Virus record (IMG/VR): IMGVR_UViG_3300007734_000746
Span: 1-63,746 of that record
Length of the DNA: 63,746 nucleotides
From: a virus
Strand: one strand, 5' to 3'
A program made the position numbers and the translations under genes. The notes under the pieces are model-generated. The model saw only the letters and a list, made by a program, of their open reading frames with translations. It was not told the DNA's origin and made no database searches. Numbering within the stretch: the first letter of the stretch is position 1; each line of letters opens with the position of its first letter. Below, in pieces: positions 4,141-63,746 of this stretch.

Positions 4141-4146
4141 AAACTC

Positions 4147-5992: not shown

Positions 5993-6004
5993 AAATTATC
6001 CAGT

Positions 6005-7073: not shown

Positions 7074-7082
7074 GATTGTTCC

Positions 7083-7716: not shown

Positions 7717-7717
7717 T

Positions 7718-8252: not shown

Positions 8253-8289
8253 TCTCCTAGAAAGTGAGGGCCGAAGCCCCCAAGATTAA

Positions 8290-40781: not shown

Positions 40782-41052
40782 GTTGCTGGATGCTGCGCGT
40801 GAGTTGCCCTGCCAACATTGTGGTACGCAAAATGGTACGGTGGTGGCGGCTCACAGCAATCAACTGCGGGACGGCAAAGGCCGAGGCCTCAAGGCGCACG
40901 ACTACAGGATTGCATCACTCTGTTACAAGTGCCACTCTGACCTGGACCAGGGCACCCACATGAGCAAGGCCGAAAGAATTGAGCTGTGGGAGGATGCACA
41001 CCGCAAGACTATCGGACTTATGTTTGAACGCGAGATTATTGGGCTGCTTTAA
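40765..41052 (+). CDS. HNH-type nuclease, DUF1364-like (95 aa)
   Basis: Starts MYRNRKLLDAARELPCQHCG, then VVAAHSNQLRDGKGRGLKAHDYRIASLCYKCHSDLDQG. The CxxC ... AHxN ... KA-D ... C-x2-CH layout is the small recombination-type HNH family (DUF1364-like). Probably resolves or nicks recombination intermediates. The longer frame from 40687 lies inside the previous gene. Its end overlaps the giant gene's stop tail-to-tail by 17 bases. Confidence 0.75.
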   Translation: MYRNRKLLDAARELPCQHCGTQNGTVVAAHSNQLRDGKGRGLKAHDYRIASLCYKCHSDLDQGTHMSKAERIELWEDAHRKTIGLMFEREIIGLL

Positions 41053-44000
41053 CCTTATCGTTAAAGTCTTTCATGGCTTTAATCCTCATCTCTTCAATAC
41101 GCCGAGCATTCTTTGTATCGTTTTTATCAAGATACATTTTCTTCTCTTTGTTAAGTTTAGAAATTCTGTTTTCTACGTTATTGGCTTGTTGCCATAACTT
41201 AGATTCAGGATTTGCTTTTTTGTACTCTTCAACAGGCTCTTTGTTTTGTATGCGCTTTTTGATTTCATGCTCATACTCAGCCATTTGAGATATGTTGTCG
41301 TAAAACTTAGCTGAGATGGCAGCCGGTGTTTTAGTTTCCCCGTACAGTTTTCCAACCACTGGGATCTTGTACGCGGGAACTTCTTCTCCCTCGGCTGCGG
41401 CTTTAATAGATCCAACACCCTTAATTACTTCTCTGCCTACGCCGCCAAAGTACTGTCCAGCCAAGTAATCTATTTCATCAGCTGTTGGGCTAACTAATCC
41501 CTTGGTGTGTTTTGTCCCCATTGGAGATGTAATGAAGTTTAAAAACTCAGCTATTCCTTGGCTAATGAATGTAGCTGTAGGACGAGAGCGCTCATATCCA
41601 GGCGTTGGCTGGGTGGCCATATCCTTCTTATAGATCGGACGACCAAACGCATCTTTGTTTGCTGAGATTGCAAATAGTGGATCAAACGCGGTTGGCGCAA
41701 TCATTTGGGTAAAGCTACCAGCACCCAACGGATTAAATGAATCAAGAATTAATGATCCAATGCTTAGAGCTTTATCCCCAAGACCTTGATTGCTCTTAAG
41801 CAGCCCGCCTTTGATAAGCACAGCCTCAGTCAAGATGCGGCCAATTCCTGGGAACACATTGAGTCCTGGGGGCATTGGCAAGATGATGTAGTTGTTTCCT
41901 GCAAATGGGATTGGAATGATCAGGTTCTTGTCCTTCAAAAACTCCGGAGGATCTCCATCATCGTACCCATTTAACGCCAACGCAATTGCTTGAATGACGC
42001 CCAGGGCGATACCGCCAGCAATGATCTTTTTGCCCATTGGCCCGTTTAGGGTTTGTATTAAGCGAGCAGTTCCTTGGACGGATGCATTGATAAAAGCATA
42101 CAAAGCCTGGAAGGTTGGGGAAGCAGCTCCTTTGCGGTTAAAGTTAACGGTCAACTCTTTAGCAATAGACGCAGCCTTTTGTTCACTCAGACCTTTCTCA
42201 AGCGCAACTTTAAACGCCGACAAGCGCACAGCGTTTTCCATTGCATCGTTGTAGTCAGAGAGCCAATCAAAAAGCTTTTGTGTGGCTTTTTTAACATTAC
42301 CCCTGTTGAGCCGCTTCATTTCCTGCTCAACAATATTTACCTTTTCTTTTGGCGCGCCAGTCCTCATGCGCTCAACAAACTTATCAAATGACTCGCTTTG
42401 ACCGCTGAACTGCTTAGCAAATCCAGTGGTGCCTCCGGCAAGTCGCATTTGATCAAACAAATCTATTAAAGCTTGTTCTTCTGGAGATGAGGCTGGCTTT
42501 TTCCTCAAGCTTTTCCAGATAGCAAACATTGCTGGCAGGGTGCCTTTTAAAACTTCTTTTTCTTTCCCGGCAATTTCTGTCGTTGAAAGATTGAAGGCAG
42601 CGCTTTGTACGTCACGGGTCATGTTCCATGCGCCAAACACTGGGTTGAACTGCGTATTGATAGATGCAATCCAACGTGTTACCGCGCCGATATTACCCAA
42701 GACAAAGCCAAGTTGGTCAGAGTCCAGATTCTTCAGCGACATAGCCATGCGCATGGCACGCTCATCTTTAGGATTAAAGATGATGAATCGGTCTTCCCCA
42801 TTGATACGAACAGGGAACACGTTCTTGCTGTTGTATTGCGCTGGGTTAACGTCATAACGCACAAGTCCCGTGGTCTTGTCAATCGACGGGGTTTGCAGCG
42901 GGCGAATAAGGCTTTCTGCATCCTGAATAGTCAAGCCAAGGCTAACCATCTCTTGAATGAGTTTGGCCTTATTCTTAATCGCATTAGGATTAATCGGCAA
43001 CCAGAACTTTGGATTAGGGTTGGTGATGGCCAATGCATACAAAGCCCTGCCAACTTTTGCCTGCTCAGATCTGCGAATTGCTTTCTCGCGCTGCATTGCA
43101 ATGTTGGCCAGGATATCTTTAACTGGTTTAACGGAACCTACCGCACGCTTAGATGCACCGCCTTTTGTTCCTACTCCGCCAACATATCCAGAACCGGTGT
43201 GTACAAAGTCTAGGTCATCACGCTGTAGTGGGACGTAGTGCTTATAAGTTTTGTTCCATTGGTCAATAGTGTCCTGAGTCTCAAGACCACCATCAACCAA
43301 CATCTTCTGCGTTCCATCAATGATGTCATCAATCTTGGCAGCAAAGCGCTCCAGCTTGGCTTTCTCAGCGGCTGGTAAGTTGGACAAGTAATCCTGGGCG
43401 TCAGTTGTTTTAATTCCTGAGCCGGTATCCTGAACATCAGGAGAAAGATTAATCTTGTTAATCTGTTCGTTGCGCTCTTGTGCATGGCGGTTGTGCAAGT
43501 ACGTTTCGAGCGCCTCTACACTTATGCCCTCACGCTTCATTTGCTCAAGCAGCGGACGGAAATCATCTTTCAAGAAATCCAAAATGCGCTCAGCAGAACG
43601 CCCGTGATAAAGAGTTTCTTTTGTATAGGCGTCCAGGCGCTCATCAATCTGGCCAACCTTTTCATTGATCCTCTCAATTACACGCTTGGTGTCTATCTGT
43701 TTATCTGCGCCTTGATAGATAAGTCCATCTGTAAAAGATGGCTCAACCGTATCCCAAAGGGCTGTTGGTGCTGCATTGCCTTTATAGTTTTGGATGGAGA
43801 GATAGTATCCTTCGCCCAACATCTCTCTCGTTACAAACTTGCCGTCAGACTTAGCTAGGCTATCTAGCGCACGGATGATGGAGGCATCAGACTTCAATCC
43901 AAACAGCGACTTGATCTTCTGGCCAAACTCTTTGAGCCAATTCTTCAGACGCGCCAGCAAGCCGCCTTGTACAGCGTCATAGCGGGCTTTAACAATGTCA

Positions 44001-47000
44001 GAACCATTTACAGCCCAGAACTCAGATGGGTTGAAGTACTCATAATTAGCTACTGGAACCATGCCAAGCTTAAGCATTTCCATTGCAAAATCTTCGCTGG
44101 AACCGCGTTTTTGCAGAGCTTCCAGTAAAGACTTTATTTGCTCATAAGTTTTTTCTGCACCCTTGGGAACCTCTATGTTGGCTATATTGCCGTCGCCATA
44201 GTGGGCATCCATGAGTGCAGCAAAGTAAAGCTTTTCATTTGGCGTCTTGGCTGCTTTGGCAGCTTTTGCAAGCTGAGACGCCCAGGCTTTACGAATGGCT
44301 TGACGTATTTTGGTAGGCATCATTCTCTCAAGATGATGCAATATCTCGTGTGTAGCTGTTAAATTAGAGGACGCATTTTTAATAATTGTTGCGATGCGGT
44401 AAAAGGAATCATATTGACCGCCTTGGCCAGCCTGACCTTTTCCAATAATGGATATACCTAAGTCGCTGACAAGATCCTCGTTCTGCCCCATAAACCAGAC
44501 AGCCAGATCACGAGCTTCGCGCGACATATCTCCAGCCATAACAGCTTCATTCAATCTCTTTTGAATGTGCAAGAACCCACGCTTGCGCTCGCTCGGTTCT
44601 TTCTCAAGACGCTGCTCTTCATCAGCGGCAATAGCAGCATCAGCCTCCTCAACAAATTTTTCATCTGTTATGCGGCCATCTTTGCGCATCCTGTTAAGAG
44701 TCTTAATGGTGCGCTTCAAAGAAGTAGAGCGCTTCTCTCTTTCTTCATCGGTGTAGCCTTGAATGTCGTAGAAGGTTGGCTCTTTTGGTTCTTTGGGTTC
44801 TTTCCCTGGAGCCTCTTCTTCAGTCTTAACCTCAAGCTTGGCCAACTCTGTTTCACGGCCAGTTTGCTTGCGTTCAACACCAGGCTTTGGAGCTGGGACT
44901 TGCTTCTCTGTCACGGTTGTCTTGGTGACTGGCTCAACCTTTTGGCGGATGATGTCATCGCTGTACATAGCTTTACCATTGATAAAGTCCATGACGTTTG
45001 CGCCGTTCTCGGGAACGATAAATATCTTGGCGCCATCCATCTGGTTAAGGTGGTTGGTGATTAGGTACTTGAAGGTTTCCTTGTTGACGTTAATACAGCC
45101 AAAGGAATAGCGCGAGTCTTCTGCTCCAGGCTTCTCTAGCGCAGCCAGGCGTTGCTTGGCGTCAGTCTCATGCGTCCATACAGAGTGCATGATGGTGTTG
45201 GAGTACGGGCCGTTGCTTCCCATGTGGGACTTGTCCAGCACAAACACTTTGCCAAAGTCATAGTCGCCAGCGGTATAAGCCTCACCAGCGCTACGCTTAG
45301 CATCACGCAGGCCCAGATCAAACACGCCAGCCGGAGTAATCCTATTGGCTTCAATCTCATTGTCGCCATGCATGTAGTCGCCGATAGCCTTGCCAAACAA
45401 AGTTTTGCTTTGGAGCAATAACGATCCGTCAGGGTTGAATAGGTAAGTGTTACCGCTTCGCTTGTCGGCAACAATAAACAGCTTGTCCTTTTCTTTAAGC
45501 TGCTTTTCCAGGGCCGGGTAGATGACGCCATACGCACGCTTAGCGGCATCAGACATCGACTGCGCTTCTTTCGGCAGGTCTTTTATCACCTCGCTGGTCT
45601 TGATGTCGTACTGGGGAACTGCAATTGTGTACGGCTTGCTGACAAACTGAGGGTTAAATACGATGGCCACAGACAGCACGCCGTTAGCAATCTGCTTGAT
45701 GATTGCGCGGATCTTGCCGTTAACAGCTTTAGCGCCCTGTGTAATGAAGGCAATGACATCCTTGCGTAGGCTGTCCAGGAACTCAGTAGAGTCACGCTTG
45801 GCGCCGTACTGTGACTCAAGGCTCTTCTTCTGGTCTTCGCTTAGCTTGGAGGTCTGGTCAGTCAGCAAGGCGTGCTGCTTCTCTTCGCCTATCTCTGTGA
45901 ATTCACCCTCAATGGTGTATGGCTCATTTGTCAAGCGAGGCGCAGCTGGCTTTTCTGCTGGCCCAAGCACCTCTACCTCTGGCTCACGAACCATAACTTT
46001 GTTGGAGTCTTCTGCAAAGTCAAAGCCAAACTTTTTGTACAGATCTTCCAACTGCTGGCGGTCAAGGCCAAAATTCTTTTCTTTAATGTTTACAAGCGGT
46101 ACCGGCTCAATGTACAGAGTAACTCCATACTGGTCAGCAGCATCAACAATGTTTTGAAGCGCCTCATTGGCTTTGCCTTGGTTGCGCTTGGCCTGGTCCA
46201 CCAATAGAGCATTGATCACCAGATCGGTAGATTCACCTTGGCCGGTTAAGACGGCATTCTTATCCTGGAACAATACAAGCTGGGGTGTAAGAGATACGCG
46301 CACGCCATCTTTCTCAAACGTGCGGTGAGGATCGCCACCCTTGTCAACATAGGTGCGTGGATCTTTAAGTGCCAATACCTCATAGCCGTCATTAAATAGA
46401 ACAGCGGCCATAGGGTAGCGCAGGCTTCGGCCCTCTGGCGTTTCTACTGGCTCAAGCTTAACTCCTTCTTGTTTGCCTATGTACCCAAACTTTTCAGCAT
46501 TTTTTACTGACTCTGCGTCCATTGATAAAGGAATATTTTTAACCCCAGAATCACGCAGATATGCATATCTATGTCGCCCATCTCCAAAAACGATAGCTCC
46601 ATCTTTGTCTACAGAAACATTTGGGGCCTCTATAGATTTTGCATCTTTAATAAATTCTGCAAATTTTTTATACCGGCCTTCTATTCCACCTTCTCCACCT
46701 TCGCCAACATATTGCCATGTTGTTTTGGAAAAGGCTTTATCAAAAGCATCAGTGTTAACTTTAACTAATTGATTTTCTTTTTCCAGCCGGTGCATTGTTA
46801 CTGGAACATCTTTTCCATTAACTTGAATAACATCTTCAAGTTTTGCCGGAGCTTTTTCTTCCTGCTCCTCCTGCTGCCCACCAATGATGTCGCGGGCTAT
46901 ATTAGCAGCCTCTTCTAAGTCACCGTCATAGTACTTGTCTTGGAACAAAGAGCTGTCAATGGCCTCTTCATCAGCTTCTGTAGCGCCCTCAAAAGCTTTA

Positions 47001-50000
47001 GGATCAACGCCATAGTAAGTGCGAGTAAGGCGCTCAGCCGGAGTCATGCTCTCGGCATTGTTAGCCATGAAGAATGCGTAGGCAAAACCTTCAGGCGTCA
47101 GAGAACGGGCGTATTTATTCTTGCCGCTAATCTTGTGGATTTTTGAACCTTCAGTTGGCTCAACTGGAGCCATAGGAAGATCATTTTGAAAGTTACCCCA
47201 CAGCAGGGTTTTCTTTGTGTATGGATCGCCGTAGAAGTTAGGATCAAACGTCAGGTGGGCTGGCGGCAAATTGTTTAGCTTTGCGATTCGCCCAACAGGA
47301 TTTTCCATTGCCCAAATTTTTGGCTGGAGAAATTCCACTGTGCGCAATACTTGTTTTACCAACTCATTGCTTAATTCAGTTTGTCCTTTAGCATCTTTTG
47401 CCGCCCAAAACTGAGCGCCGGATGACGCAAAGTCTGTGCATGGTGGGGCCGCAAGGATGCCCCAAATATTCATATCGCCAAAGCCCTCATTAAGAAGATA
47501 CTCTGCGCTAAAGTCGTTAATATCTTCGCCGGTCTGTATATCAAAAGTCCATACGTTATAGCCAGCCTCACGCCACGGCTTAGACCACTCACCAGAAGCG
47601 TCAAACAGGCTCATAATGGTCCTGTCAAAATTCTTATTGGTCTTACCCTGGCGTGCGGCTTCCGCCTTCCATTCTTCAATCTGAGCCTTGGCCTCTTCAG
47701 GCGCCATCATTTCAGTTGGCTTTGGCTTAGCTGGCTTTTCAGCCGGATGCATTAGCGCGTTATAGCGAGTATCGTAGGGATTTTCTTCTTTTGGAGTTTC
47801 GCTTAAAAGCTTTCCAACAGTATCAGAGTCAGCTTCAAAAGGAACAACCTTAACACCGTCTTCTGTAATGTCTAGCTCTTCCTCAACCTTCTCTTCCTCT
47901 TGAGCAAAGATATCCTTCTGCCCACGCGCAGCCGCGACATCGGCAGCACGATCACTGCCGGTTAAAGTAAATTCACCAACCTCTTTGTCGGCTTTGGCTT
48001 TTTCTTCAGACTCTTTTTTGGCTTTAGCTTCGGCGGCTTCCGCTTCCTCTGCCTTCTTGCGATACTCTTCTTTGGCCCTTAATCCTTCTGGGGTTGGGCG
48101 AGTAAGCGCTTTTCCTTCATCTGGCTCAGTAGATGGAATCTCGCTTTCGGGCTCAACGCTGCGAGCATTGATTTCACTCTGTCTTTTTTCGTCGGCTGCT
48201 TCTTGAAGTTCAAGGTTCTGCTCCTCAATAGTTAGGTAGTCGTTAATTAATTTCTCAGCCTCTTCAACAGAGCCAAAGATTTGCTCAATCTCTACCTGTG
48301 ATTCGTAGGGAATGTAGTTCTGGTTGCGTACTTGATCTTTGATGTACTCTTCCGCCTCCTGGCCGTCAAAGCCTGGAACGTTAGAGCGCATTTGGAACGG
48401 CAGGAAATCATCTAAGTCTCCATCCGAAACCATGTCTGCGATTGACTTGCCACTAGATCCTTTTTTGGCTTGGAGCTTCTTCTGGTAAACCTGTGGGCTC
48501 TTACCAAATAACTCAGCTATATCACTAGAGCCAAGCTTTCCAACCAAAGCAGTCCATAGGCTACCCCCAGGCTTTCCTTTGATTTTGCTAACAGCCTTCT
48601 CACCTTCGCTAACCCTTTGCTCCGCCTCGGTAATTTCCTGCGGCCGTGGAACAGCCTTGCGGATTACTTGTTGGGCTTGGGTAGCAGAGTCGTTGGCGCG
48701 CTTGATGGAAAGATTAAATTTATCTGCATCAGCACGCTTGTATTCGTTTTGAATGGCGTAGTGATCTCGCAAAAGCTTCAATCCATCAGACAATAAATTG
48801 CTGTATTGAGTTTTTAAATTACCCAACCCTAGAGGAAGTTTTGTATCGTTAACTTGATAGCCAAGATTATTAAGGGCTGTAATTACATCCTGTATGGACG
48901 CACTTACATTATCAAAAGCAGTCTTTGCCTCGGGTGAGGCTGTTTTTTGAAATGTATCGTAATACTTTTGCTCATTAGCCTCCAAGAAGTCAGACCACTT
49001 AAAGCCCTCTTCTTTGGCCTCTGCTTTGCCTTGCTTTGCTTGAAACTCTTGCAGCTTTTCTTTGTAAAAAGGAATAGATTCTTTTTTAAACATTCCTCTT
49101 TTAACACTATTGCGCACCGTATCTGCAAAATCTTTTTGCCCAGCAGCCTCTATTTGTTCAGCCAAATCTAAAGCTTCTTGTTGGTCCGGCGTAGGATTGC
49201 TTAAAGTTTTTTCACCAATCTCTCCTATTATGCGATCTCTCTCAGCTTGGATTTTGTCCAACTGATCTTGGCTAATACGCCCTTCCCTGAAAGCTTTCTT
49301 TGCATTAAAGCTAACAGTATTAATGATGGTGTATTGCTCTTCAATAGGGCGGTCTTTAAGATTGCCAAGCGTCAATCTTTCAGCAGGGGCTGCGGGCGCT
49401 TGTTCTCCTTGCGCTTCTGCTTGCTTGGCTTTAGGGGTTTCAATGCCACTTAGGGCTCCTTCAATAGAAACAGGGGTTGGGGTAGTTGGAGCTTGTTCCT
49501 CCACTTGCTTGCGAACAAATGGGCCGGCCTCCGCTACTGTTGGCTGGATTCCGGCGGCTTTAGGCTCTTCAACATTAACAGGTGGTAAAGTTGCGACTCC
49601 AACAGGAGCTTGTCCCAATGCCTCACGCAGCATTGCCTCTGTATCCATAGATTCAGACGGCGCAGCGGTAAGGCCAGCAATACCAGCCGGAGGAGTAATA
49701 GGAGCACCGCCACTTGGAGGGGTTGGAGGCTCATTTGGACGGGCTGTAGGAGGGGTTATTTCTAGACCAGGAACATTAGCTCGGACGTTTGTTCCTTGAC
49801 GGACGCCTGCGTCTGGGCTTAGTGATTGGCGTACTAATTGATCTATCGCTTCTTGATTGACAGTGGCGCCTTTTGCACCCTCTTCTAATGCCTTTGCAAG
49901 CACCTCAGCGCGGGTTTGTTCGCCTGTTTTGGCACCATAAACCCTGGCCCCAGTAGTAACAGCACCGCCACCTAGCGCTCCAGCAGCCTCCGCCGCAGCA

Positions 50001-51226
50001 GCATTCAAAATGTCTTTAAGATTCTTTTCTGTTAAGAATTCTTCCTGTTCTTTTTCACGAACTTGGCCGGCAATCTGTGTGGCTTGTTGAGCGCCGCCGG
50101 TAAGGAATTCTTCAGCCATTTGCTTGGGAACTTCTTTGACGCCAGCTTTAAAGGCTTGCTTCTTAGTCTCTCCAGCAACAACTTCTTTAAGCCCGCGCTT
50201 AGCCAATGCAGCATCAGGACCAAGTACGCTGTCCAACATGCCATTGATGATGCCAACAGCCAGGGTGGTATCGCCAGTCTTTGTAATGTAATCAATGACA
50301 GTATCAGCCCGCTTGTTCCGAGGCATGTCTTTGATTTGATCTTTCAATGCGCTAAGGCGGTCATCCACAGCCTGGGCCGTGCCCATGCCAGCCCCAAGTA
50401 AAGCAACTCCGCCAGGCCCGGTGGTTACCGCTGCCAGCATGATAGGAGCCATTTGAACTGCGCCAGAGCCTACGTTGTAAGCGAGCCAGTTGGCAAAGTC
50501 TTTGACGTTTTCTACGTCTGTTAGGTCAGTTGTACGTCCTTTGTACTTAACTGAGTCTTTTTGGTATTGGTCTAAAGTCTCCAAAGAGGCAGAGACAAAA
50601 TCCTTGCGCCTGCCAATCTCATCGACTGTGCGGTTACGAATCTTCTCGCGCATAGCTGGATCAGCGCCCAAATACGCACGCGCTTGCGATGTAGAAATAT
50701 CCAATCCGCGCAACTGGTCTGGGTTGGTAATCTCACCAGTCTCAATCTTGTTAAAGAGGTCAAGCCTTTTTTGCACAGTGCCAAGCGCGCCAACATCTTT
50801 GTAGATGCCAGCTTGCTCCCACATGGATGGCAGGGCAATTTTTGCAGCGCTTTCCACGCCTTTGCCAAGCTCTTCCATAGGGCGAGCTTTCGATGGCGGA
50901 CGAGGTGCTTTGGGCGCAGCTGCCACAGGCTCGGCGCCTGGAGCGCCAATAGCGCCCATTACTTGATCCTCTGGGGAAAATATGGGCTCAGCTTGCGGCG
51001 CAGTAAATGGTTTGGCTAGAAGGCTTCTTATGCCAGCACTTGATGGAGTGGCTGTAGCGTAGGCTTGCTCTTGAGGAGACATAGCCGTATTGCCTGCAAA
51101 ATCAGGAACCTTTGGCGCAGGAGTAGGCGGCTGCTTTTCAAGGTAACTTAGGATTTTTGCCTTAGCTTCAGCCGGGTCCTCAGTGGTAATGTCGTACTGC
51201 TGACCCTTGTACTCATAAATGGGCAT
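41036..51226 (-). CDS. Giant internal 'polyvalent' virion protein (3396 aa)
   Basis: Approximate layout: residues 1-35 YEYKGQQYDIT head; 255-285 hydrophobic Ala/Gly segment; ~450-640 Pro-rich linker; ~640-1130 helices; ~1200-1340 C5-methyltransferase-like domain (SLFDASG..., APPCTDFASSG ~1261, MENPVGR ~1307); ~1470-1580 ParB-like segment (GDGRHRYAYLRDSG); ~1600-1740 GNAT-like (RNQGKANEAL); ~1860-2070 L,D-transpeptidase (HSVWTHE, YSFGCINV with Cys ~2041); ~2230-2310 zincin (HEILHHLE ~2292); then long helices and a C-terminal membrane-active segment ~2830-3150 (large-polyvalent-protein type). Such proteins are packed in the virion and ejected; domains may cut the wall or protect DNA. Occupies 16% of the genome. 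Confidence 0.85.
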   Translation of the reverse strand: MPIYEYKGQQYDITTEDPAEAKAKILSYLEKQPPTPAPKVPDFAGNTAMSPQEQAYATATPSSAGIRSLLAKPFTAPQAEPIFSPEDQVMGAIGAPGAEPVAAAPKAPRPPSKARPMEELGKGVESAAKIALPSMWEQAGIYKDVGALGTVQKRLDLFNKIETGEITNPDQLRGLDISTSQARAYLGADPAMREKIRNRTVDEIGRRKDFVSASLETLDQYQKDSVKYKGRTTDLTDVENVKDFANWLAYNVGSGAVQMAPIMLAAVTTGPGGVALLGAGMGTAQAVDDRLSALKDQIKDMPRNKRADTVIDYITKTGDTTLAVGIINGMLDSVLGPDAALAKRGLKEVVAGETKKQAFKAGVKEVPKQMAEEFLTGGAQQATQIAGQVREKEQEEFLTEKNLKDILNAAAAEAAGALGGGAVTTGARVYGAKTGEQTRAEVLAKALEEGAKGATVNQEAIDQLVRQSLSPDAGVRQGTNVRANVPGLEITPPTARPNEPPTPPSGGAPITPPAGIAGLTAAPSESMDTEAMLREALGQAPVGVATLPPVNVEEPKAAGIQPTVAEAGPFVRKQVEEQAPTTPTPVSIEGALSGIETPKAKQAEAQGEQAPAAPAERLTLGNLKDRPIEEQYTIINTVSFNAKKAFREGRISQDQLDKIQAERDRIIGEIGEKTLSNPTPDQQEALDLAEQIEAAGQKDFADTVRNSVKRGMFKKESIPFYKEKLQEFQAKQGKAEAKEEGFKWSDFLEANEQKYYDTFQKTASPEAKTAFDNVSASIQDVITALNNLGYQVNDTKLPLGLGNLKTQYSNLLSDGLKLLRDHYAIQNEYKRADADKFNLSIKRANDSATQAQQVIRKAVPRPQEITEAEQRVSEGEKAVSKIKGKPGGSLWTALVGKLGSSDIAELFGKSPQVYQKKLQAKKGSSGKSIADMVSDGDLDDFLPFQMRSNVPGFDGQEAEEYIKDQVRNQNYIPYESQVEIEQIFGSVEEAEKLINDYLTIEEQNLELQEAADEKRQSEINARSVEPESEIPSTEPDEGKALTRPTPEGLRAKEEYRKKAEEAEAAEAKAKKESEEKAKADKEVGEFTLTGSDRAADVAAARGQKDIFAQEEEKVEEELDITEDGVKVVPFEADSDTVGKLLSETPKEENPYDTRYNALMHPAEKPAKPKPTEMMAPEEAKAQIEEWKAEAARQGKTNKNFDRTIMSLFDASGEWSKPWREAGYNVWTFDIQTGEDINDFSAEYLLNEGFGDMNIWGILAAPPCTDFASSGAQFWAAKDAKGQTELSNELVKQVLRTVEFLQPKIWAMENPVGRIAKLNNLPPAHLTFDPNFYGDPYTKKTLLWGNFQNDLPMAPVEPTEGSKIHKISGKNKYARSLTPEGFAYAFFMANNAESMTPAERLTRTYYGVDPKAFEGATEADEEAIDSSLFQDKYYDGDLEEAANIARDIIGGQQEEQEEKAPAKLEDVIQVNGKDVPVTMHRLEKENQLVKVNTDAFDKAFSKTTWQYVGEGGEGGIEGRYKKFAEFIKDAKSIEAPNVSVDKDGAIVFGDGRHRYAYLRDSGVKNIPLSMDAESVKNAEKFGYIGKQEGVKLEPVETPEGRSLRYPMAAVLFNDGYEVLALKDPRTYVDKGGDPHRTFEKDGVRVSLTPQLVLFQDKNAVLTGQGESTDLVINALLVDQAKRNQGKANEALQNIVDAADQYGVTLYIEPVPLVNIKEKNFGLDRQQLEDLYKKFGFDFAEDSNKVMVREPEVEVLGPAEKPAAPRLTNEPYTIEGEFTEIGEEKQHALLTDQTSKLSEDQKKSLESQYGAKRDSTEFLDSLRKDVIAFITQGAKAVNGKIRAIIKQIANGVLSVAIVFNPQFVSKPYTIAVPQYDIKTSEVIKDLPKEAQSMSDAAKRAYGVIYPALEKQLKEKDKLFIVADKRSGNTYLFNPDGSLLLQSKTLFGKAIGDYMHGDNEIEANRITPAGVFDLGLRDAKRSAGEAYTAGDYDFGKVFVLDKSHMGSNGPYSNTIMHSVWTHETDAKQRLAALEKPGAEDSRYSFGCINVNKETFKYLITNHLNQMDGAKIFIVPENGANVMDFINGKAMYSDDIIRQKVEPVTKTTVTEKQVPAPKPGVERKQTGRETELAKLEVKTEEEAPGKEPKEPKEPTFYDIQGYTDEEREKRSTSLKRTIKTLNRMRKDGRITDEKFVEEADAAIAADEEQRLEKEPSERKRGFLHIQKRLNEAVMAGDMSREARDLAVWFMGQNEDLVSDLGISIIGKGQAGQGGQYDSFYRIATIIKNASSNLTATHEILHHLERMMPTKIRQAIRKAWASQLAKAAKAAKTPNEKLYFAALMDAHYGDGNIANIEVPKGAEKTYEQIKSLLEALQKRGSSEDFAMEMLKLGMVPVANYEYFNPSEFWAVNGSDIVKARYDAVQGGLLARLKNWLKEFGQKIKSLFGLKSDASIIRALDSLAKSDGKFVTREMLGEGYYLSIQNYKGNAAPTALWDTVEPSFTDGLIYQGADKQIDTKRVIERINEKVGQIDERLDAYTKETLYHGRSAERILDFLKDDFRPLLEQMKREGISVEALETYLHNRHAQERNEQINKINLSPDVQDTGSGIKTTDAQDYLSNLPAAEKAKLERFAAKIDDIIDGTQKMLVDGGLETQDTIDQWNKTYKHYVPLQRDDLDFVHTGSGYVGGVGTKGGASKRAVGSVKPVKDILANIAMQREKAIRRSEQAKVGRALYALAITNPNPKFWLPINPNAIKNKAKLIQEMVSLGLTIQDAESLIRPLQTPSIDKTTGLVRYDVNPAQYNSKNVFPVRINGEDRFIIFNPKDERAMRMAMSLKNLDSDQLGFVLGNIGAVTRWIASINTQFNPVFGAWNMTRDVQSAAFNLSTTEIAGKEKEVLKGTLPAMFAIWKSLRKKPASSPEEQALIDLFDQMRLAGGTTGFAKQFSGQSESFDKFVERMRTGAPKEKVNIVEQEMKRLNRGNVKKATQKLFDWLSDYNDAMENAVRLSAFKVALEKGLSEQKAASIAKELTVNFNRKGAASPTFQALYAFINASVQGTARLIQTLNGPMGKKIIAGGIALGVIQAIALALNGYDDGDPPEFLKDKNLIIPIPFAGNNYIILPMPPGLNVFPGIGRILTEAVLIKGGLLKSNQGLGDKALSIGSLILDSFNPLGAGSFTQMIAPTAFDPLFAISANKDAFGRPIYKKDMATQPTPGYERSRPTATFISQGIAEFLNFITSPMGTKHTKGLVSPTADEIDYLAGQYFGGVGREVIKGVGSIKAAAEGEEVPAYKIPVVGKLYGETKTPAAISAKFYDNISQMAEYEHEIKKRIQNKEPVEEYKKANPESKLWQQANNVENRISKLNKEKKMYLDKNDTKNARRIEEMRIKAMKDFNDKVKAAQ

Positions 51227-51234: not shown

Positions 51235-52845
51235 TTAATCAAGTTTAATTACTTTTGGCGCAGAAGACCCGCCTCCAAAGAAGGTTCCCATCTTACTAAA
51301 AAATCCTGGCTCTTCTTTTGGCTTATCTTGGAAAGACTCGTAGGTTGGCAATGCACTTGGCTGCGGAACAGGTAGTCCAGCTGCCTTGTAAGCATCCGCA
51401 CGATACTTGTCTCTAATAGCCCGGTAATACTTGCCAACTGGGGAATCCAACTCTTCAGCAGAAAGGCCCGCAATTCTTTTTGTCACCTCTGAAAAATCTG
51501 ATCCCGGCTTGCTTAAGTTTGCCTCAACTCTTCCAATTACTTTTTGCTCAGCGGTGGGCCGAGATTCTCTAAGAGCCTCTAATTGTTCTTGACGAAGAGC
51601 TAGCTCAGAATTTTTTGTAGCTTCTTGATACTTTAATCTCTGACGCTCAATATCTCTTTGGCTTGCATGATTGGCAATCATCTCTTTCAAAGTAAGAGCC
51701 GCATTATTTTCAAGCTGCTTGTAATGATCAAGAGTGCCTTTTGTCTGCATTTCTGTATTAGCAGCGGTAAGTGCATCTTTAGAGGCGGTAACTGCAAGAG
51801 ATTCGCGTTTTGCAATTCTGTCGGCAAGCGCTTTTTGATAGGCAATAGCATCAGCAACACGCCCTTCAATTTGCGCTTTTGCATAGGCCTGGCGCAGCGT
51901 TTCAATGTCAGCATCCAACTTGCCAACTTCAATCATTTGCTGACGCTCAAGAGCCTGTTGAGCCTGCTGTCGTTTAATGTCTTCAGCGGTGTAATTGCTG
52001 TATGACTTACCAAACCCAGCAAATGCAGCGCCAAGGCCTTTTTGGCCACGAGTAGCTTCACCAGCTGCAATTAATGCATCACCAAGCGCGCCTAGTCCCA
52101 TGCGCTTTTGGTTTTCTTGGAATTGCGCTTTACTGGCTTTATTTTGCTCATCAAGCTTGGCAGACAATGCAGACAACGCAGAGCCTGGGATTACGCTCAC
52201 CAGCCTAGCCAACTCTGGATTTTTTTCCAATATTGCCTGACGGATAGCTTCTGGATCTTTAGGCATAGGCTCATCAGTATCACCCCTAATAGCCTTGGCC
52301 AAAGCAGCAGTTGCTGGGCCTGTCAAAGATGCAACTCCGGCTTGCGGCATTGCAGACGCAGGAGGACCTTGCATTTCCATGTTAGCGCGGGCTTCAGCTT
52401 CACCAGCAGTTTCTTCATCTGCCTCACCACCTCCACCAAACGCAACAATACCTCCAGGCGCGTAATGAAACATATCATCACGGACCGGAAGCTCGGCCAC
52501 TCCGCCTCCAGCCATAGCTGGCATTTCTTGAGGAGCGCCCTGAGGCATCCCTTGCGGCATACCTTGTGCAAGCTGCGCTATTCCTTGTGGTGCTTGTTGA
52601 GGCATTTGAGCTACACCCTGAGGCATACCCTGAGGCATTGCACGAGGAGCGCCTACTTCAGCCTCTAGCTTATCTTTAACAGACTGCGTTGGCATTTCTG
52701 TTTTTCGCTTTTCTGCTCTGCTGCGGCGCTCAAGCTCACCCAAAGCCATATAAGGAGGTACCTCTGGGTTCTGGGCATTTGCGTAGGATTTAACTACGTC
52801 AGTAGGAAGATCTTTAAGATGTTCCTGAATTTGTATCAGATTCAT
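51235..52845 (-). CDS. Internal virion protein with MPQG repeats (536 aa)
   Basis: Starts MNLIQIQEHLKDLPTDVVKS and YANAQNPEVPPYMALGELERR, a conserved start of virion proteins encoded beside polyvalent proteins. Residues ~65-115 are (MPQG)n-rich, followed by GGGxAELPVRxDMFHYAPGGIVAFGGGG. A long helical, coiled-coil region (~260-450) and a Gly/Pro end follow. Probably part of the ejected internal core; six bases separate it from the giant gene. Confidence 0.7.
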   Translation of the reverse strand: MNLIQIQEHLKDLPTDVVKSYANAQNPEVPPYMALGELERRSRAEKRKTEMPTQSVKDKLEAEVGAPRAMPQGMPQGVAQMPQQAPQGIAQLAQGMPQGMPQGAPQEMPAMAGGGVAELPVRDDMFHYAPGGIVAFGGGGEADEETAGEAEARANMEMQGPPASAMPQAGVASLTGPATAALAKAIRGDTDEPMPKDPEAIRQAILEKNPELARLVSVIPGSALSALSAKLDEQNKASKAQFQENQKRMGLGALGDALIAAGEATRGQKGLGAAFAGFGKSYSNYTAEDIKRQQAQQALERQQMIEVGKLDADIETLRQAYAKAQIEGRVADAIAYQKALADRIAKRESLAVTASKDALTAANTEMQTKGTLDHYKQLENNAALTLKEMIANHASQRDIERQRLKYQEATKNSELALRQEQLEALRESRPTAEQKVIGRVEANLSKPGSDFSEVTKRIAGLSAEELDSPVGKYYRAIRDKYRADAYKAAGLPVPQPSALPTYESFQDKPKEEPGFFSKMGTFFGGGSSAPKVIKLD

Positions 52846-52856
52846 TTTCTTTATCC

Positions 52857-53744
52857 TTATGGACCTAAATCAATACCCAGTTTCTGTAAGAGTGAATTAA
52901 TATCTTTAAAGCCTAAAGCTTCTGCAACTTTGGTTCCGCCACCAAGCATAGCCAAAATATTACCTATATCGCTCATTTGGGCTGGAGTATTTGAAACAGA
53001 AGAAACGGGTAAACCTGTTATCGCATTGCGCATGTAATCCACTTGCTGGTAAGGGAACTGGCGTTGTTTTTCAAATTCAGCCAAATCAGCAGCAACGCCC
53101 TCAGACTCAATGTTGCGCTGAGTTGCACCTGTGCTTGACATCAAATCAGCTAGGGTTTTTGCCTGATTTTGTTCAGTATTAAACTGCCCCATTGCTCTGT
53201 CATAAGCATTAGCGTAGCCCGCACCAACAGTTTTGTTTTGCTCTTGCATCAAGTTACGCTGTGTTTCAGCATCCATAATGGCTTGCCTGCTTCCTCCAAA
53301 CGCACCAGCATTTGCCATCTTCCCGGCGTTTTGCATTTGCGTTATTTGAGATTGCCTGCGCAGTTCTTCTAGTTGCGGGTTTAGAACGGACTGCAAATAT
53401 GGATTCATGTACTGAGCAGCTAATCCTGGCGTACCAGTTGCGTCGCCAACAAGCTTTCCATCATCACCGTAAGTTGGAAGTTTATAAGCGTCAGCAGAAC
53501 TAAAACTTTTACCCAGATTGCTTGGGAAGTTAAGTGACTCTATGCCTTTGAATACTTTATTCTGTATATCAGACGCTCCTGCGGTAAGAGGTCCTTTATA
53601 CGTTTCATAAGGAGTACCAGCTAAAGCTTTGGCTTTACCCAAATAATCCGTAATGTAAGGAGCGGCCCAGTCTGATAAACCTTGAGCGTTTGTGCCGCCA
53701 GCGGTTAAGTTGTTGTCAAGTGTAGAAGGAGAATTGATAGGCAT
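52857..53744 (-). CDS. Internal virion/tail protein (295 aa)
   Basis: Contains WAAPYITDYLGKAKALAGTPYETYKGPLTAG, YMNPYLQSVLNPQLEELRRQSQI, and NAGKMANAGAFGGSRQAIMDAETQRNLMQEQ, helical blocks typical of podovirus internal or tail-tube proteins. It lies between two other internal-type proteins. Role inferred from context. Confidence 0.65.
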   Translation of the reverse strand: MPINSPSTLDNNLTAGGTNAQGLSDWAAPYITDYLGKAKALAGTPYETYKGPLTAGASDIQNKVFKGIESLNFPSNLGKSFSSADAYKLPTYGDDGKLVGDATGTPGLAAQYMNPYLQSVLNPQLEELRRQSQITQMQNAGKMANAGAFGGSRQAIMDAETQRNLMQEQNKTVGAGYANAYDRAMGQFNTEQNQAKTLADLMSSTGATQRNIESEGVAADLAEFEKQRQFPYQQVDYMRNAITGLPVSSVSNTPAQMSDIGNILAMLGGGTKVAEALGFKDINSLLQKLGIDLGP

Positions 53745-53753
53745 GATTATTCC

Positions 53754-55610
53754 TTATGCTGGCAAGTACTTTGCTGCCTTTGTATTGGCTGCAACGTTTT
53801 TGGTTTTACGGCGGACTTTTTGGACTCGGTCCATCATCTCATACAAACGCTTAGCGCCTGCATCTGTAGAACCGTTTCCAAGCTCAGAAACAATTCTTGC
53901 TGGTATAACAAACTCGCCGTTAGCTAAACGGGCAGGTTGTTTTTTACCAATTATGGCAGGAATTGAGTCAGAAACACCATCCCCTGGTCCTTGAAGCAAC
54001 CTTCCGCCATCGGAGTAACTTCCTAAGCCGCCAAGCGACATTAGGCCGCCGCCAGCAGCTTTTGGGGTATAGGTGGTGGGAGAGAAGTAGGTAACCCCAC
54101 CCTGCCCAGGCCGGTAAGGCGTATTTGGGTTTATCCCTTTTTTATTTACATCGTATGGAAGTTGAGTCCTTGTGGCTGTAAGCTCTGGGATGGTGGCCGT
54201 GCTGGCCGCTGGCGCGTTGCTTCCCTTGTTCATCATGGACATTAAAGCCAGCAAACCTAATGTTCCGCCAAAGCCTATTCCTGATCCTGTGCTAGATTTA
54301 CCAGTTAACGCACCTTTTGCCTTATCCAGTAAATCTGTTATACCACTCTTTGAGCCAGCAACAGTAGTTCCAGCAGCGGCAGCTAGCTCTGCTGGAGTTA
54401 ACATGCCTTCAGCCGCCGCTTTTGCGCCAGCAGAACCAGGGCCAAGTCCAGAAGCAATAGCTTCTTTTAAAGATGTTGATTTAATAACATCTGTTCCACC
54501 TGGACCGTTACCTGCCCCGGCTTTTGCAGATCCTCCAGCATCAATGTAATCTTGCGCCCCTTGTTTGGCCATTTCTACCAAAGCTGGAGTAGCGCCTTCT
54601 GTTACTACACCCGAAGCAGCGGCCAATTCAGCAGGTGTTAAAGCTCCGGTAGCGGCACCAGTAGCACCAGCAGATCCCGGAGTAAATGTGCCAGAAGCTA
54701 CCATTTCGTTTAAAGAAGTAGTAGCGCCTGGCAAAGAAGCTACTTCTGAAGCCGGTAATGCTGCGAGTTCAGTACCCAATGATCCAATCCCACCAGCAGC
54801 AGCCAATTCTGCTCCCGTCAATGCGCCTGATGCAGCCCCTAGGGCACCAGCAGATCCCGGAGTAAATGTACCAGCGGCAATCATTTCCGGGGAAAATGCA
54901 GCCGCAGTACCCAACGAGCCAATCCCAGTTGCCGCACCTGGCAATGACGCCAATTGAGCGCCAGTCAAAGCTCCTTCTGCTGCGCCTAATGTGCCAGCTC
55001 CAGCGGCAGTAGCACCTGCACCACCAGCCAACATTGGCAAAAGATAATTTGCACCAAAAGCAGTTAACGCTAATGGCGCAAGGTCTTTGATTAGAGTGCC
55101 TAAATTTTGCCTGTCAACAATAGACGTTTGTTTTCCGCTAGTATCAAAATTAACGTACTGGCTTTTCCCGTTATCGTAACGGTAACCGATTGGTGCGCCG
55201 TATTCTTGCGTAACTGTTCCTCGACCATGAGCTGTTTCTCCAACTGCATAAACAGGCTCAAGTTCTCCGCCTACTTGTTTTTCAATTGCAAGAATTTCTG
55301 GGGGTTTTGGAACCGATATTTTTCCAGCTCTAACAGTTTCTGGATCTGGCTCGTACCCAATAATTTTATTGTTTCCTTGTCTATCAATCGAATAAATTGG
55401 TTTTCCTAAATCTTTAACTTTAGGAACTTTTGCAGAGATGCCAGCGCCCACTGATTCAGCGTTTATAGCAGAAGCAACGTTGGCAGGTAAATCAGCAATT
55501 CCGCCACTAATAGAAGTAGGCGTTAATTGTTTTTCTCTAATAAATTGTTTGCCGTCACTTTTTTCATCTATAAGATCTAAATCATTTTGATCAATGTATT
55601 TTTTTGTCAT
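53754..55610 (-). CDS. Ala/Gly-rich internal virion protein with internal repeats (618 aa)
   Basis: The N-terminal ~160 residues are globular-looking (YSIDRQGNNKIIGYEPDPETV). About 175-430 are repeats of the ASGTFTPGSAGA-x-GAATGALTxAELAAA type, at ~60-residue spacing, with a matching 180-bp DNA period (identical 26-base stretches at 54664 and 54844). The C-terminal ~120 residues carry PAAGGGLMSLGGLGSYSDGGRLLQGPGDGVSDSIPA and a basic end. Such repeats suit a flexible or membrane-inserting internal protein. Confidence 0.65.
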   Translation of the reverse strand: MTKKYIDQNDLDLIDEKSDGKQFIREKQLTPTSISGGIADLPANVASAINAESVGAGISAKVPKVKDLGKPIYSIDRQGNNKIIGYEPDPETVRAGKISVPKPPEILAIEKQVGGELEPVYAVGETAHGRGTVTQEYGAPIGYRYDNGKSQYVNFDTSGKQTSIVDRQNLGTLIKDLAPLALTAFGANYLLPMLAGGAGATAAGAGTLGAAEGALTGAQLASLPGAATGIGSLGTAAAFSPEMIAAGTFTPGSAGALGAASGALTGAELAAAGGIGSLGTELAALPASEVASLPGATTSLNEMVASGTFTPGSAGATGAATGALTPAELAAASGVVTEGATPALVEMAKQGAQDYIDAGGSAKAGAGNGPGGTDVIKSTSLKEAIASGLGPGSAGAKAAAEGMLTPAELAAAAGTTVAGSKSGITDLLDKAKGALTGKSSTGSGIGFGGTLGLLALMSMMNKGSNAPAASTATIPELTATRTQLPYDVNKKGINPNTPYRPGQGGVTYFSPTTYTPKAAGGGLMSLGGLGSYSDGGRLLQGPGDGVSDSIPAIIGKKQPARLANGEFVIPARIVSELGNGSTDAGAKRLYEMMDRVQKVRRKTKNVAANTKAAKYLPA

Positions 55611-55622
55611 AATTAAAATTCC

Positions 55623-56282
55623 TTAAGGTAAGGCTGATACAAATGTCATTGTGGCTACCACAGACTGTGTTGCCGGTCGTGTTGGGCCGGTTGAAGCTGG
55701 GTAATATTGAATGGTCACAGAATTAAGCGTGGTTGACCAGTAAATTTCTATGTAGTCGTTAGCCGCCATACTGACATAGTAGTTCCACCCAATAATCTCA
55801 TGGGCTTCTTCACCGGCTGACGCGCTTTTTCTTGCTGGAATAGAAACAAAGCCCGTTGAACCTGTAATGTCTGTTCCATTTTGGCGCAACCAAATGCTGA
55901 TGTCTTGAATGGCGTTATCTGTGTTTTGGAACTGGGCACTAAATTGCAGGTTGTATATACCGGCATTAGCTACCGTTATCTTGGAAGAGTTAATTGACAC
56001 GCCATTGGCAAAATCCGTTGTGTTCAACGTCATCAGCGTGGCTGTATTTGCCGTAGTGCTTTGATCTTGATCGCTGGAAAAAGCGCCATATGGAAACCGT
56101 ACCCCAGCAATACCGCCCGAAGTTGATAACTGCCCAAGAATATTGTCAAGCTGGTTAAAGTACAGGCGCAGGACGTTATTCAACTGGTTGATGTAGTTCT
56201 CGTCGTACTGCTTGGTAGCCGCAGGCAAGCGCGGCGCAACCACCCGGTTAAGCTCGTACTGGGAAGTAACAACGTAGCTCAT
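55623..56282 (-). CDS. C1q/jelly-roll-like tail protein (219 aa)
   Basis: A helical stem (ELNRVVAPRLPAATKQYDENYINQLNNVLRLYFNQLDNIL) is followed by a beta domain with TAIYNL, MTLNTTDFANGVSINSSKITVANAGIYNLQFSAQF and WLRQNGTDITGSTG-like strands of the C1q/TNF-type jelly roll. This suits a trimeric tail spike or fibre head. Coupled to the nozzle gene. Confidence 0.65.
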   Translation of the reverse strand: MSYVVTSQYELNRVVAPRLPAATKQYDENYINQLNNVLRLYFNQLDNILGQLSTSGGIAGVRFPYGAFSSDQDQSTTANTATLMTLNTTDFANGVSINSSKITVANAGIYNLQFSAQFQNTDNAIQDISIWLRQNGTDITGSTGFVSIPARKSASAGEEAHEIIGWNYYVSMAANDYIEIYWSTTLNSVTIQYYPASTGPTRPATQSVVATMTFVSALP

Positions 56283-58360
56283 CGACGCCCATCCGGTCGA
56301 ATGTCAATACGGGGCGCACCAAGCTGCCACTGCGTACCAATAGTGTTAGATGTGATTTTCATCTGCATCTGGCGACCACGAATCCTGATGTAAACCTGAC
56401 CTGTGTACTCATCAACATTGATGACTGAAGGAGCGGTTCCGTTATACGTTACTCCCGCATTACCAGACTGCGTAATACCAGAACCGGAGTTATTTAGCCC
56501 TTGCAAGTACATAGTGACCGCTGGTGTTGTTCCCCCCGTTGATCCCCGGAAAGTCAAGTCTGGAATCATGCGGTACACAAAGGCAAAATTGTGGCCGTCC
56601 CCGATGTCGTACTGGGCCGAAGTTATGCTTGCCTCAATGGGTAACGTGGTTGCTGTTTCGTTGTCATCCACGCCGTACTCATGCTGTACGATGTTGTAGC
56701 TGTAAGTGGCAGCAAGTGGATATTGCCGCAAACCTGTATCCAGCCAAGCTGTACGAGCCATTGAGCCATACTGCCAAATATCTTCAGCGTAGTTGTAAAT
56801 AACGTATTTGTCTATTGTGTTGCTGTTTGCTGAACAGTAAAAAAACCAGACTTCGTTAAAGCCTTCGTTAGTGCTTGCAAATATTTGGTCATACTGCAAA
56901 GGATTAATATCGCTGTAAATATACTGACGCAAGTCACAGCGAAGCGTTTGAACCCTACCATCGTATTTGTAGAACTTGTCTACGCCCATCCAGTAAGTAA
57001 TACCCGAAGCCATAGCCGCCGCATTAGGGCCAGCAATAGATATGTTGTCTGCAAGAAGTTGCGTACTCCAAACATACGGAGGCCCGAGGTACTGCAACGA
57101 GTACAACGCTTGGTCAGTCCAGACCACGATTTCTTGACGGCTTTGCAATGTTGTGACAATTTTGGAGCCATGCGATAAACGCACGCTGCCTGCTTGATTG
57201 GTAACCGCCGGGTACCACGTAGTCAATGACTCCTGATCTGACCAGCGGATCAGCATTGGGTCAAGCGTGGTGCTTCCATAATCATTTGTACCAAACACAA
57301 GCAAAAACCGACTTGCGTCAGACACAGTAAGGGTGTTTTGGTACAGCGGGCAGTAACCATCAGAACCGGGAAGCTGCGACAACAACATCCCGCGTTGAGA
57401 AATATACTGTACGCCCGATTGAGTACCGGATGTGTTAATTGACGCCCCGCCGGAAGTGGCGGCAAGGTTGTAAGTCGTAGCAGTAATGTACTTGACGTAG
57501 TAAGTAACACCCGGCAATAAACCAGTAGGTAGTGCGCCCGTGGTAGTGAATGTAATAGGTGTTCCGTCTGCAAGGGTTGTTGTAGTTGTCATTACGCAAG
57601 GAGAAGCAATGGATAGCGTAACAACTATTCCTCCAGCGTTACTTATACCAATGGTTGCATCCCAGTAATACATAGGCCCGCCGCGAGGGCCATACACCAA
57701 GTTTTGCCCCCAGTTAATTTGGCTCCAAATACGAAGAGCATCCGTAGAAGAAGTTCCAATACCCCACGCACCCGACCCCCACATACTTGCCCCCCAGCCA
57801 GAAAGAGGGACTGTGTAGGACGGCCCAGTATTAATTTGATAAACAGCATAGACTGTCCCGCCCCCAGTAGCGGCGGTGGCGGCTGCGGAAATAGTGATGT
57901 TGTATGTATTTACCGTTAAAAGCGTTATTTGGTACTCACCAACAATAGTCTGCCCGCCAACAGAAGTACCGCCATAGAAGGTTACAAAATCCCCATTAAG
58001 AGCGCCATGCCCCGCATCAGTAACAAGCACTGTTGTGGTGCCGTTAGTAGTAAATGGGTTAGTCAGCGTGTGTTCTGCGCGAATTGGGGTAATGTCGTAA
58101 TAAGCACCGCCGTTTTCAATATAAAACTTGTAGTTCGTGCCAACGCCAAGTAGGTTTTGTGCGCTAAGCGTTACCCAGTTCCATAGTGATCGACATAAAC
58201 CTAAAAACGTATTGGCAGAAATACGTTGCCAGCCACCAATTTTTTCGGGCGTGCCTTGGCGAAACCGAACTTTGTCGGACTCATACCAGCCCCCCTCGTT
58301 GGTGTACCGAGTGTTTTCCCGGTTAACCCCCGGCTTGAGCAGCAGTTTTTGTAGAGGCAT
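56279..58360 (-). CDS. Tail tube/nozzle-like protein (693 aa)
   Basis: Starts MPLQKLLLKPGVNRENTRYT then GGWYESDKVRFRQGTPEKIGGWQR, the highly conserved beginning of a large tail protein of many podovirus-like phages. The middle is beta-rich with DAGHGALNGDFVTFYGG and repeated GVTYYVK blocks. The C-terminal half (LVFGTNDYGSTTLDPMLIRWSDQESLTTWYPA...) looks propeller-like. By position and family it should form the nozzle below the adaptor. Confidence 0.8.
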   Translation of the reverse strand: MPLQKLLLKPGVNRENTRYTNEGGWYESDKVRFRQGTPEKIGGWQRISANTFLGLCRSLWNWVTLSAQNLLGVGTNYKFYIENGGAYYDITPIRAEHTLTNPFTTNGTTTVLVTDAGHGALNGDFVTFYGGTSVGGQTIVGEYQITLLTVNTYNITISAAATAATGGGTVYAVYQINTGPSYTVPLSGWGASMWGSGAWGIGTSSTDALRIWSQINWGQNLVYGPRGGPMYYWDATIGISNAGGIVVTLSIASPCVMTTTTTLADGTPITFTTTGALPTGLLPGVTYYVKYITATTYNLAATSGGASINTSGTQSGVQYISQRGMLLSQLPGSDGYCPLYQNTLTVSDASRFLLVFGTNDYGSTTLDPMLIRWSDQESLTTWYPAVTNQAGSVRLSHGSKIVTTLQSRQEIVVWTDQALYSLQYLGPPYVWSTQLLADNISIAGPNAAAMASGITYWMGVDKFYKYDGRVQTLRCDLRQYIYSDINPLQYDQIFASTNEGFNEVWFFYCSANSNTIDKYVIYNYAEDIWQYGSMARTAWLDTGLRQYPLAATYSYNIVQHEYGVDDNETATTLPIEASITSAQYDIGDGHNFAFVYRMIPDLTFRGSTGGTTPAVTMYLQGLNNSGSGITQSGNAGVTYNGTAPSVINVDEYTGQVYIRIRGRQMQMKITSNTIGTQWQLGAPRIDIRPDGRR

Positions 58361-63699: not shown

Positions 63700-63746
63700 G
63701 GCTATGTTGAAGTGTATGTATACGATACTTGAACTTTTAATCCTGA
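63620..63746. repeat. Terminal direct repeat, right copy (circular contig overlap)
   Basis: Identical to 1-127; count once. The unit genome is 63619 bp. Confidence 0.95.

Follow-up and report, generated by a model that had tools for sequence, protein, structure and literature searches.

A YkuD L,D-transpeptidase module within a 3396-residue phage polyvalent protein of probable ejection type

The virus record IMGVR_UViG_3300007734_000746 (63,746 bases, analysed over its entire length and referred to here as the window) contains an open reading frame (ORF) that encodes a giant protein of 3396 residues. The protein combines a C5-cytosine methyltransferase-like module, a ParB-like module, a GNAT acetyltransferase, a YkuD L,D-transpeptidase module, and a zincin-like metallopeptidase with a C-terminal LPD38 core (Table 1). 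Judged by its LPD domain, its several enzymes, and its late position in the genome, it is a phage polyvalent protein. An L,D-transpeptidase module appears not to have been described in a polyvalent protein before. We consider it on balance probable that the giant protein is ejected into the host, where its YkuD module would remodel peptidoglycan stem peptides at the entry site and its zincin would free the individual modules.

Structure and conservation of the YkuD module

The active-site residues of the YkuD module are His2014-Ser2015 and Ser2041-x-Gly2043-Cys2044-x-Asn2046. AlphaFold2 models of the giant protein, each containing two or more domains, have a predicted local distance difference test (pLDDT) value of approximately 95 in the YkuD block. 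Each of the best 50 rows of the VIA structure comparison for this block is an L,D-transpeptidase or a YkuD-fold L,D-carboxypeptidase, and the Z-scores are 8.8–10.9. The matches include LdtMt1/2, Ldtfm, YkuD, Csd6, Pgp2, and YcbB, with 114–141 residues aligned and root-mean-square deviations (rmsd) of 2.1–3.6. At the sequence level, the Pfam family YkuD (PF03734) matches 19 of 23 members, with a best E-value of 3.1e-5.

Scans of viral contigs starting from the YkuD segment identified 27 and subsequently 70 loci, which provided 60 distinct domain sequences in addition to that of the window. The further copies all originate from uncultivated phages, and every complete ORF that contains the module is longer than 2,000 residues. 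Clustering at 90% identity resulted in 42 sequences with pairwise identities down to 28% (median 47%), among which TPAG (1964–1967), His2014, Ser2041, Gly2043, Cys2044, and Asn2046 are invariant in all 42. The search patterns of the second scan included the histidine motif, so that the conservation of the histidine is in part a product of the search; no pattern contained the SxGC motif. Furthermore, a divergent copy from locus L076, which was found through its zincin, retains both the histidine (VHAAY) and the SxGC motif (SYGCINT). The ratio of non-synonymous to synonymous substitution rates (dN/dS) of the module relative to near relatives is 0.014–0.058, among the lowest of all modules. By this measure, purifying selection keeps the YkuD module functional where it is present.

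A tblastn search of 50,697 annotated phage records with the YkuD module returned one chance match, the NCBIfam search of the YkuD members provided no match, and no relative was confirmed in GTDB genomes scanned with the YkuD profile. A whole-genome search with PF03734 did not recover the window copy itself, and its negative results therefore carry little weight. Sequence searches of the PDB, with the full 3396-residue chain or the YkuD profile as the query, produced chance matches only, for example to a beta-propeller strand motif.

Modules accompanying the L,D-transpeptidase

The zincin contains His2293, Glu2294, His2297, and Glu2402, which are invariant in 61 aligned sequences within the motifs HE[I/M/L]xHHLE and NPSExWAVN (NPSEFWAVN in the window). 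The zincins of polyvalent proteins use two histidines of HExxH and a glutamate from a later helix as ligands, as described in the survey of these proteins by Iyer et al. (2017, PMC5512222), which is cited here and below for its main text. Glu2402 is the probable third zinc ligand of the zincin in the window. The module was predicted with pLDDT values higher than 90; its Foldseek matches to IrrE and minigluzincins are weak (E-values of 0.04–1).

The C-terminal core matches phrog_14770 (E-value 3e-167) and contains the LPD38 domain PF18857 (E-value 3e-34, score 119 against a cut-off of 27 bits). It is homologous to giant proteins of the DarB type in Burkholderia phages DC1 and BcepMigl, with 24–25% identity over approximately 750 residues (E-values of 1e-42 to 6e-40). 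The closest annotated relative of the core (39.5% identity) is encoded at positions 40096–42675 of MK170447.1, Methanosarcina virus MetMV. The archaeal host assignment of MetMV looks odd; other relatives of the core infect bacteria.

The methyltransferase module matches PF00145 with an E-value of 4.9e-5, above the family cut-off, and phrog_757 with an E-value of 3.8e-40. It contains the motif APPC at residues 1260–1263 and ENP within MENPVG. VIA comparison of the model, which is largely of low confidence, provided Z-scores of approximately 10 for the C5-methyltransferases 3g7u (from a prophage), M.HaeIII, and M.HhaI. The module spans just approximately 205 residues, and the confidence is low outside the core, which affects the full motif set and the target-recognition domain.

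The ParB-like module provided the top VIA match of the whole model: Osa (4o7k/4ovb; Z-score 12.1, 124 residues, rmsd 2.8), a plasmid fertility inhibition factor with the ParB/Srx fold. Its GDGRHR box is invariant across 15 sequences, and Pfam PFIN matches the module in 12 members. In other phages, the ParB-like domain is present in short ORFs of about 200–520 residues. A separate second ParB-like protein is encoded at positions 25729–26544 of the window (phrog_1033, E-value 1.8e-14), adjoining helicase and primase genes. The GNAT module follows; approximately 11 members of sequence set A3 carry this segment, and Pfam Acetyltransf_7 is detected in 9 A3 members with a best E-value of 3e-7. The module is similar to RimI (VIA Z-score of approximately 9), and Arg1681 and Gly1684 of its R-x-x-G-x-A acetyl-CoA loop are invariant in 11 sequences.

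A sequence-only reading of the window had proposed that five enzyme-like modules lie in one reading frame, which is borne out by the profiles, the conserved key residues, and the predicted folds, with weak fold matches for the zincin. The VIA folds match the methyltransferase, ParB, GNAT, and YkuD families, and the segment boundaries had been placed correctly to within tens of residues. Beyond that reading, the zincin extends to residue ~2410, a helical piece precedes the L,D-transpeptidase, and the C-terminus contains the LPD38 core, because of which the protein is classified as polyvalent.

Integrity of the giant gene

The giant ORF starts with ATG eight bases past the stop codon of the upstream gene and contains no internal stop codons. 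Near-identical full-length ORFs are present in independent contigs, such as that of L003 (3455 residues), the core of which is 92% identical to that of the window with a dN/dS of 0.05. Other independent contigs carry the giant protein with its modules in the same or shuffled order, and the shared parts have low dN/dS values. Therefore, the giant gene is real rather than an assembly fusion. The modest profile scores of the YkuD, ParB, and GNAT modules in the window copy could be taken as a sign of chance motifs in a long low-complexity protein, or of a chimeric assembly. However, the recurrence of the same module orders in independent contigs, the conserved active sites, the five fold matches, and the purifying selection refute this explanation, and the relatives on independent contigs together with purifying selection likewise exclude a frame artefact. 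The N-terminal region has no known domain and is conserved in a subset of the relatives.

Genomic context and predicted virion location

The record has an exact direct terminal repeat of 127 bp (positions 1–127 are identical to 63620–63746) and is therefore probably a complete genome, in which case the late genes continue across the record ends. The nearest relatives according to terminase and portal sequences are the Pelagibacter phages HTVC027P and HTVC023P, phage DSL-LC04, and cyanophages. Since the host-linked terminase and portal relatives infect Gram-negative bacteria, a Gram-negative host is likely.

The genes at positions 52857–58360 have orthologs in DSL-LC04, identified using blastp and phmmer, namely its stabilization, tape-measure, and adjacent genes, and the giant gene lies in a region with matches to PHROG virion and lysis families. 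Behind the same upstream genes, the giant gene stands where DSL-LC04 has its "DNA transfer protein". Sequence homology of the giant protein to this protein or to HTVC027P gp85 was sought and rejected, and the likeness is positional only. The internal-virion position named in the sequence-only reading thus agrees with the gene order. The same reading had called the product a virion protein. Its ejection-type position and its homology to gp69 of phage JC1 speak for this status, which for the phage in the window we infer. JC1 gp69 is a DarB-like protein of 4515 residues for which 51 unique peptides were detected in CsCl-purified virions (PMC9144972). By analogy, the giant protein would be packaged in the virion and ejected.

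Profile searches and comparison with related records ruled out that the giant protein conceals a domain of the lytic transglycosylase or lysozyme type. The SLT family has no match in 26 related records, and the phage-lysozyme matches in related records are limited to short ORFs (150–200 residues), plus one weak partial match. Since SLT is absent from these records and lysozyme is essentially encoded by a separate short gene, no other wall-active domain is identified in these giant proteins. Positions 58370–58708 of the window encode a very short (112 residues) M15 peptidase endolysin; the sister locus L064 has the same, and relatives have a phage lysozyme instead. The window also encodes an RtcB-type RNA ligase (33489–34679; phrog_1075, E-value 8e-150), and ARAGORN finds no tRNA genes in the genome.

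Table 1. Modules of the giant protein and neighbouring genes in the window
Feature	Position	Strand	Evidence
Polyvalent (ejection-type) protein, 3396 residues	41036..51226	(-)	Single open frame; PHROG and Pfam matches; full-length homologous ORFs
N-terminal region, residues 1–460	49847..51226	(-)	blastp to L003, L004, L048, L050, L051, L053
C5-cytosine methyltransferase-like module, residues ~1195–1400	47027..47644	(-)	PF00145, phrog_757, VIA
ParB/Srx (Osa-like) module, residues ~1460–1586, GDGRHR box	46469..46849	(-)	VIA; motif; Pfam PFIN
GNAT acetyltransferase module, residues ~1594–1757	45956..46447	(-)	Acetyltransf_7; VIA
Helical piece, residues ~1781–1860, hydrophobic helix 1839–1857	45647..45886	(-)	Conserved; precedes YkuD module
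YkuD L,D-transpeptidase module, residues ~1905–2075	45002..45514	(-)	Pfam YkuD; AlphaFold2 and VIA; invariant residues; dN/dS
Zincin-like metallopeptidase (gluzincin type), residues ~2216–2410, HEILHHLE 2293–2300	43997..44581	(-)	Invariant residues; AlphaFold2; Foldseek
C-terminal polyvalent core, residues ~2495–3384 (~890), LPD38 at 3093–3291	41075..43744	(-)	phrog_14770; PF18857; BcepMigl/DC1 homologs
Upstream virion genes, conserved order	51235..58360	(-)	blastp/phmmer to DSL-LC04 orthologs; PHROG virion structural protein
Stabilization protein	56279–58360	(-)	DSL-LC04 ortholog
Tape-measure-like gene	53754–55610	(-)	DSL-LC04 ortholog
Adjacent upstream genes	52857–53744, 51235–52845	(-)	Conserved order

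Proposed role of the giant protein in host entry

Judging from relatives and gene position, the giant protein would be a late product that is packaged in the capsid and leaves through the short tail during infection. Because they need DNA, S-adenosylmethionine, or acetyl-CoA, the methyltransferase, ParB-like, and GNAT modules are expected to act in the cytoplasm, on the incoming DNA and host proteins. The YkuD module is expected to act in the periplasm during passage of the protein across the wall, since its substrate would be peptidoglycan stem peptides, on which Cys2044 and His2014 would perform their chemistry. The activity is most likely L,D-transpeptidation, D-Ala exchange, or L,D-carboxypeptidase or endopeptidase trimming at the entry site. 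The protein would be threaded through the envelope, and the zincin probably cuts disordered linkers, which would free the modules for their compartments. In the AlphaFold2 model, such linkers flank the YkuD module at residues ~1856–1871 and ~2111–2166, and linker cutting by zincins that releases modules has been proposed for polyvalent proteins generally (PMC5512222). The annotation of the DC1 protein includes a soluble lytic transglycosylase, which provides a precedent for a wall-active module in such a protein. Delivery of a YkuD enzyme into a target cell also has a parallel in the type VI secretion system effector Tlde1a, which is injected and performs L,D-carboxypeptidase and D-amino-acid exchange reactions on the cell wall (PMC9638812). 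A more specific version of this proposal, in which the injected L,D-transpeptidase, released from the giant protein by the zincin, re-crosslinks (3-3) or covalently secures the host wall around the DNA conduit instead of only degrading it, is doubtful.

The L,D-carboxypeptidases Csd6 and Pgp2 score level with the transpeptidases (VIA Z-score of 10.8), and the fold therefore does not distinguish between crosslinking, D-amino-acid exchange, trimming, and cutting by the module. There is some possibility, which we put forward tentatively, that the module is a hydrolase, namely an L,D-carboxypeptidase or L,D-endopeptidase similar to Csd6, Pgp2, or DpaA, which would loosen the wall or free the outer-membrane lipoprotein. 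It would then be a virion-associated wall cutter that replaces lysozyme and clears the way for DNA. DpaA is among the Foldseek matches of the module, wall-cutting domains are frequent in polyvalent proteins (PMC5512222), and the lack of SLT in the related records is consistent with a hydrolase. Nevertheless, the equal scores do not separate a hydrolase from a transpeptidase, and no other wall enzyme is identified in the giant protein of L064, which does without the YkuD module.

Several observations weigh against the remodelling of stem peptides at the entry site. The window YkuD copy has an E-value of 3e-4 and a score of 21.8 bits, slightly under the Pfam cut-off of 23.4. The residue before Gly-Cys is a phenylalanine or tyrosine, as opposed to the histidine in the [S/T]HGC motif of many enzymes, and the activity could differ. 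The sister L064 lacks the whole stretch of approximately 330 residues that comprises the helical piece and the L,D-transpeptidase, and the YkuD module is present in only about 5 of the 35 loci found with the C-terminal core. The module is thus accessory and not required for entry in general.

The aromatic residue in S-[F/Y]-G-C would also suit a module that does not act on peptidoglycan at all, and all the remaining modules would work in the cytoplasm. Such a module could be a cysteine acyltransferase acting on proteins, for example in processing or crosslinking virion proteins, or a structural bead. This is very unlikely, because the best 50 VIA rows are all wall enzymes, and a structural bead would not need the invariance of TPAG, the histidine, SxGC, and the asparagine down to 28% identity.

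The YkuD module as an accessory cassette

The YkuD module is preceded by a conserved helical piece of approximately 80 residues, which is present before every L,D-transpeptidase copy seen in full and was not observed without an L,D-transpeptidase. Its hydrophobic helix may not span a membrane but be amphipathic. An extra tandem copy of the helical piece is found by the profile in L177 and L203. In L076 (ORF at 3–8513, residues 1074–1396), the helical piece is 71% identical to that of the window, whereas the following L,D-transpeptidase is only 34% identical, as if the YkuD domain had been swapped for a divergent one between conserved neighbours.

The proteins of L064 and the window have 92–93% identity in the methyltransferase, ParB, and GNAT modules and 75% in the zincin, and the joint in L064 falls within linkers (AAPRLTNEP... 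/ ...KPGVERK). In L007, the ParB module is located after the L,D-transpeptidase rather than before it, and in some relatives the L,D-transpeptidase adjoins an ADP-ribosyltransferase. As these arrangements indicate, the YkuD module is an accessory cassette that moves between giant proteins. Such a distribution would suit a conflict module, and Tlde1a shows that a YkuD enzyme can be injected as a toxin (PMC9638812). Nevertheless, it is unlikely that the module is an anti-host or superinfection factor that alters stem peptides wall-wide and thereby blocks wall synthesis or later phages, because the few ejected protein copies per cell would need to alter the entire wall.

Comparison with known systems

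The protein shares with LPD38-class polyvalent proteins its giant size, late gene position, LPD domain, the presence of zincin, GNAT, ParB-like, and methylase domains in one chain, and the shuffling of modules, and differs from them in carrying the YkuD L,D-transpeptidase. The sequence-only reading had considered the set of modules unusually broad, which does not hold: polyvalent proteins contain 2–15 domains per polypeptide, and zincin, GNAT, ParB-like, and methylase domains are all known from them (PMC5512222). Its remark that a peptidoglycan transpeptidase is unexpected in this place was apt. In its main text, the survey has lysozyme, SpoIID-like transglycosylase, and DD-peptidase as wall enzymes, each of them a cutter; the words "YkuD" and "transpeptidase" do not occur there, and the annotated phages had provided no match either. 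As far as that text extends, the departure from the survey is only the L,D-transpeptidase and perhaps also the methylase, which is C5-like here, in contrast to the mostly EcoKI/TaqI-like (N6-type) ones of the survey. YkuD is rarely counted among phage lytic proteins (PMC8310338; PMC13284279), and no paper describing a transpeptidase within a polyvalent protein or an internal virion protein was found in the literature covered, from which most subscription journals are missing. A similar case has been picked up by automatic annotation: a protein of Podoviridae sp. ct53O25 in BFVD has the UniProt-derived name "L,D-TPase catalytic domain-containing protein".

The DarB-like proteins of Bcep22-like phages (JC1 gp69, DC1, and BcepMigl) resemble the giant protein in the C-terminal core, size class, and position as the last big late gene. 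Unlike it, they have an annotated set of lytic transglycosylase, helicase, and methylase with no YkuD seen, and the identity of the cores is low. The bacterial enzymes LdtMt2, Ldtfm, YkuD, Csd6, and Pgp2 have the same fold (VIA Z-scores of 10–10.9) and the SxGCxN and histidine motifs. However, the identity is only ~12–22%, and the phage module is embedded in a 3396-residue chain, has no signal peptide of its own, and has [F/Y] before Gly-Cys. Tlde1a, which is among the Foldseek matches of the YkuD block (E-value 0.04), is likewise an injected enzyme with a YkuD fold and a cysteine active site; in contrast, it is a small bacterial effector with a toxin/immunity pair, outside any multi-enzyme virion protein, and the match is structural only. 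The 5145-residue "structural protein" of Pseudomonas phage 8P (8P_023; MT152150.1, 26390–41827) also contains a methyltransferase region inside a giant protein, 54% identical over approximately 310 residues, but matches neither the YkuD module nor the core. Phage 8P is in culture and could serve for tests of giant virion proteins that bear a methylase.

Implications for phage entry

Enzymes that degrade the cell wall are known in phage virions. A conserved L,D-transpeptidase in the virion, if true, would imply that wall remodelling or resealing, or D-amino-acid chemistry, is also part of entry for some phages. The module extends the known repertoire of polyvalent proteins by one domain. The cutting and sorting of ejected giant proteins is a long-standing question, and the combination of modules for two compartments with a candidate self-processing protease in one chain makes it testable.

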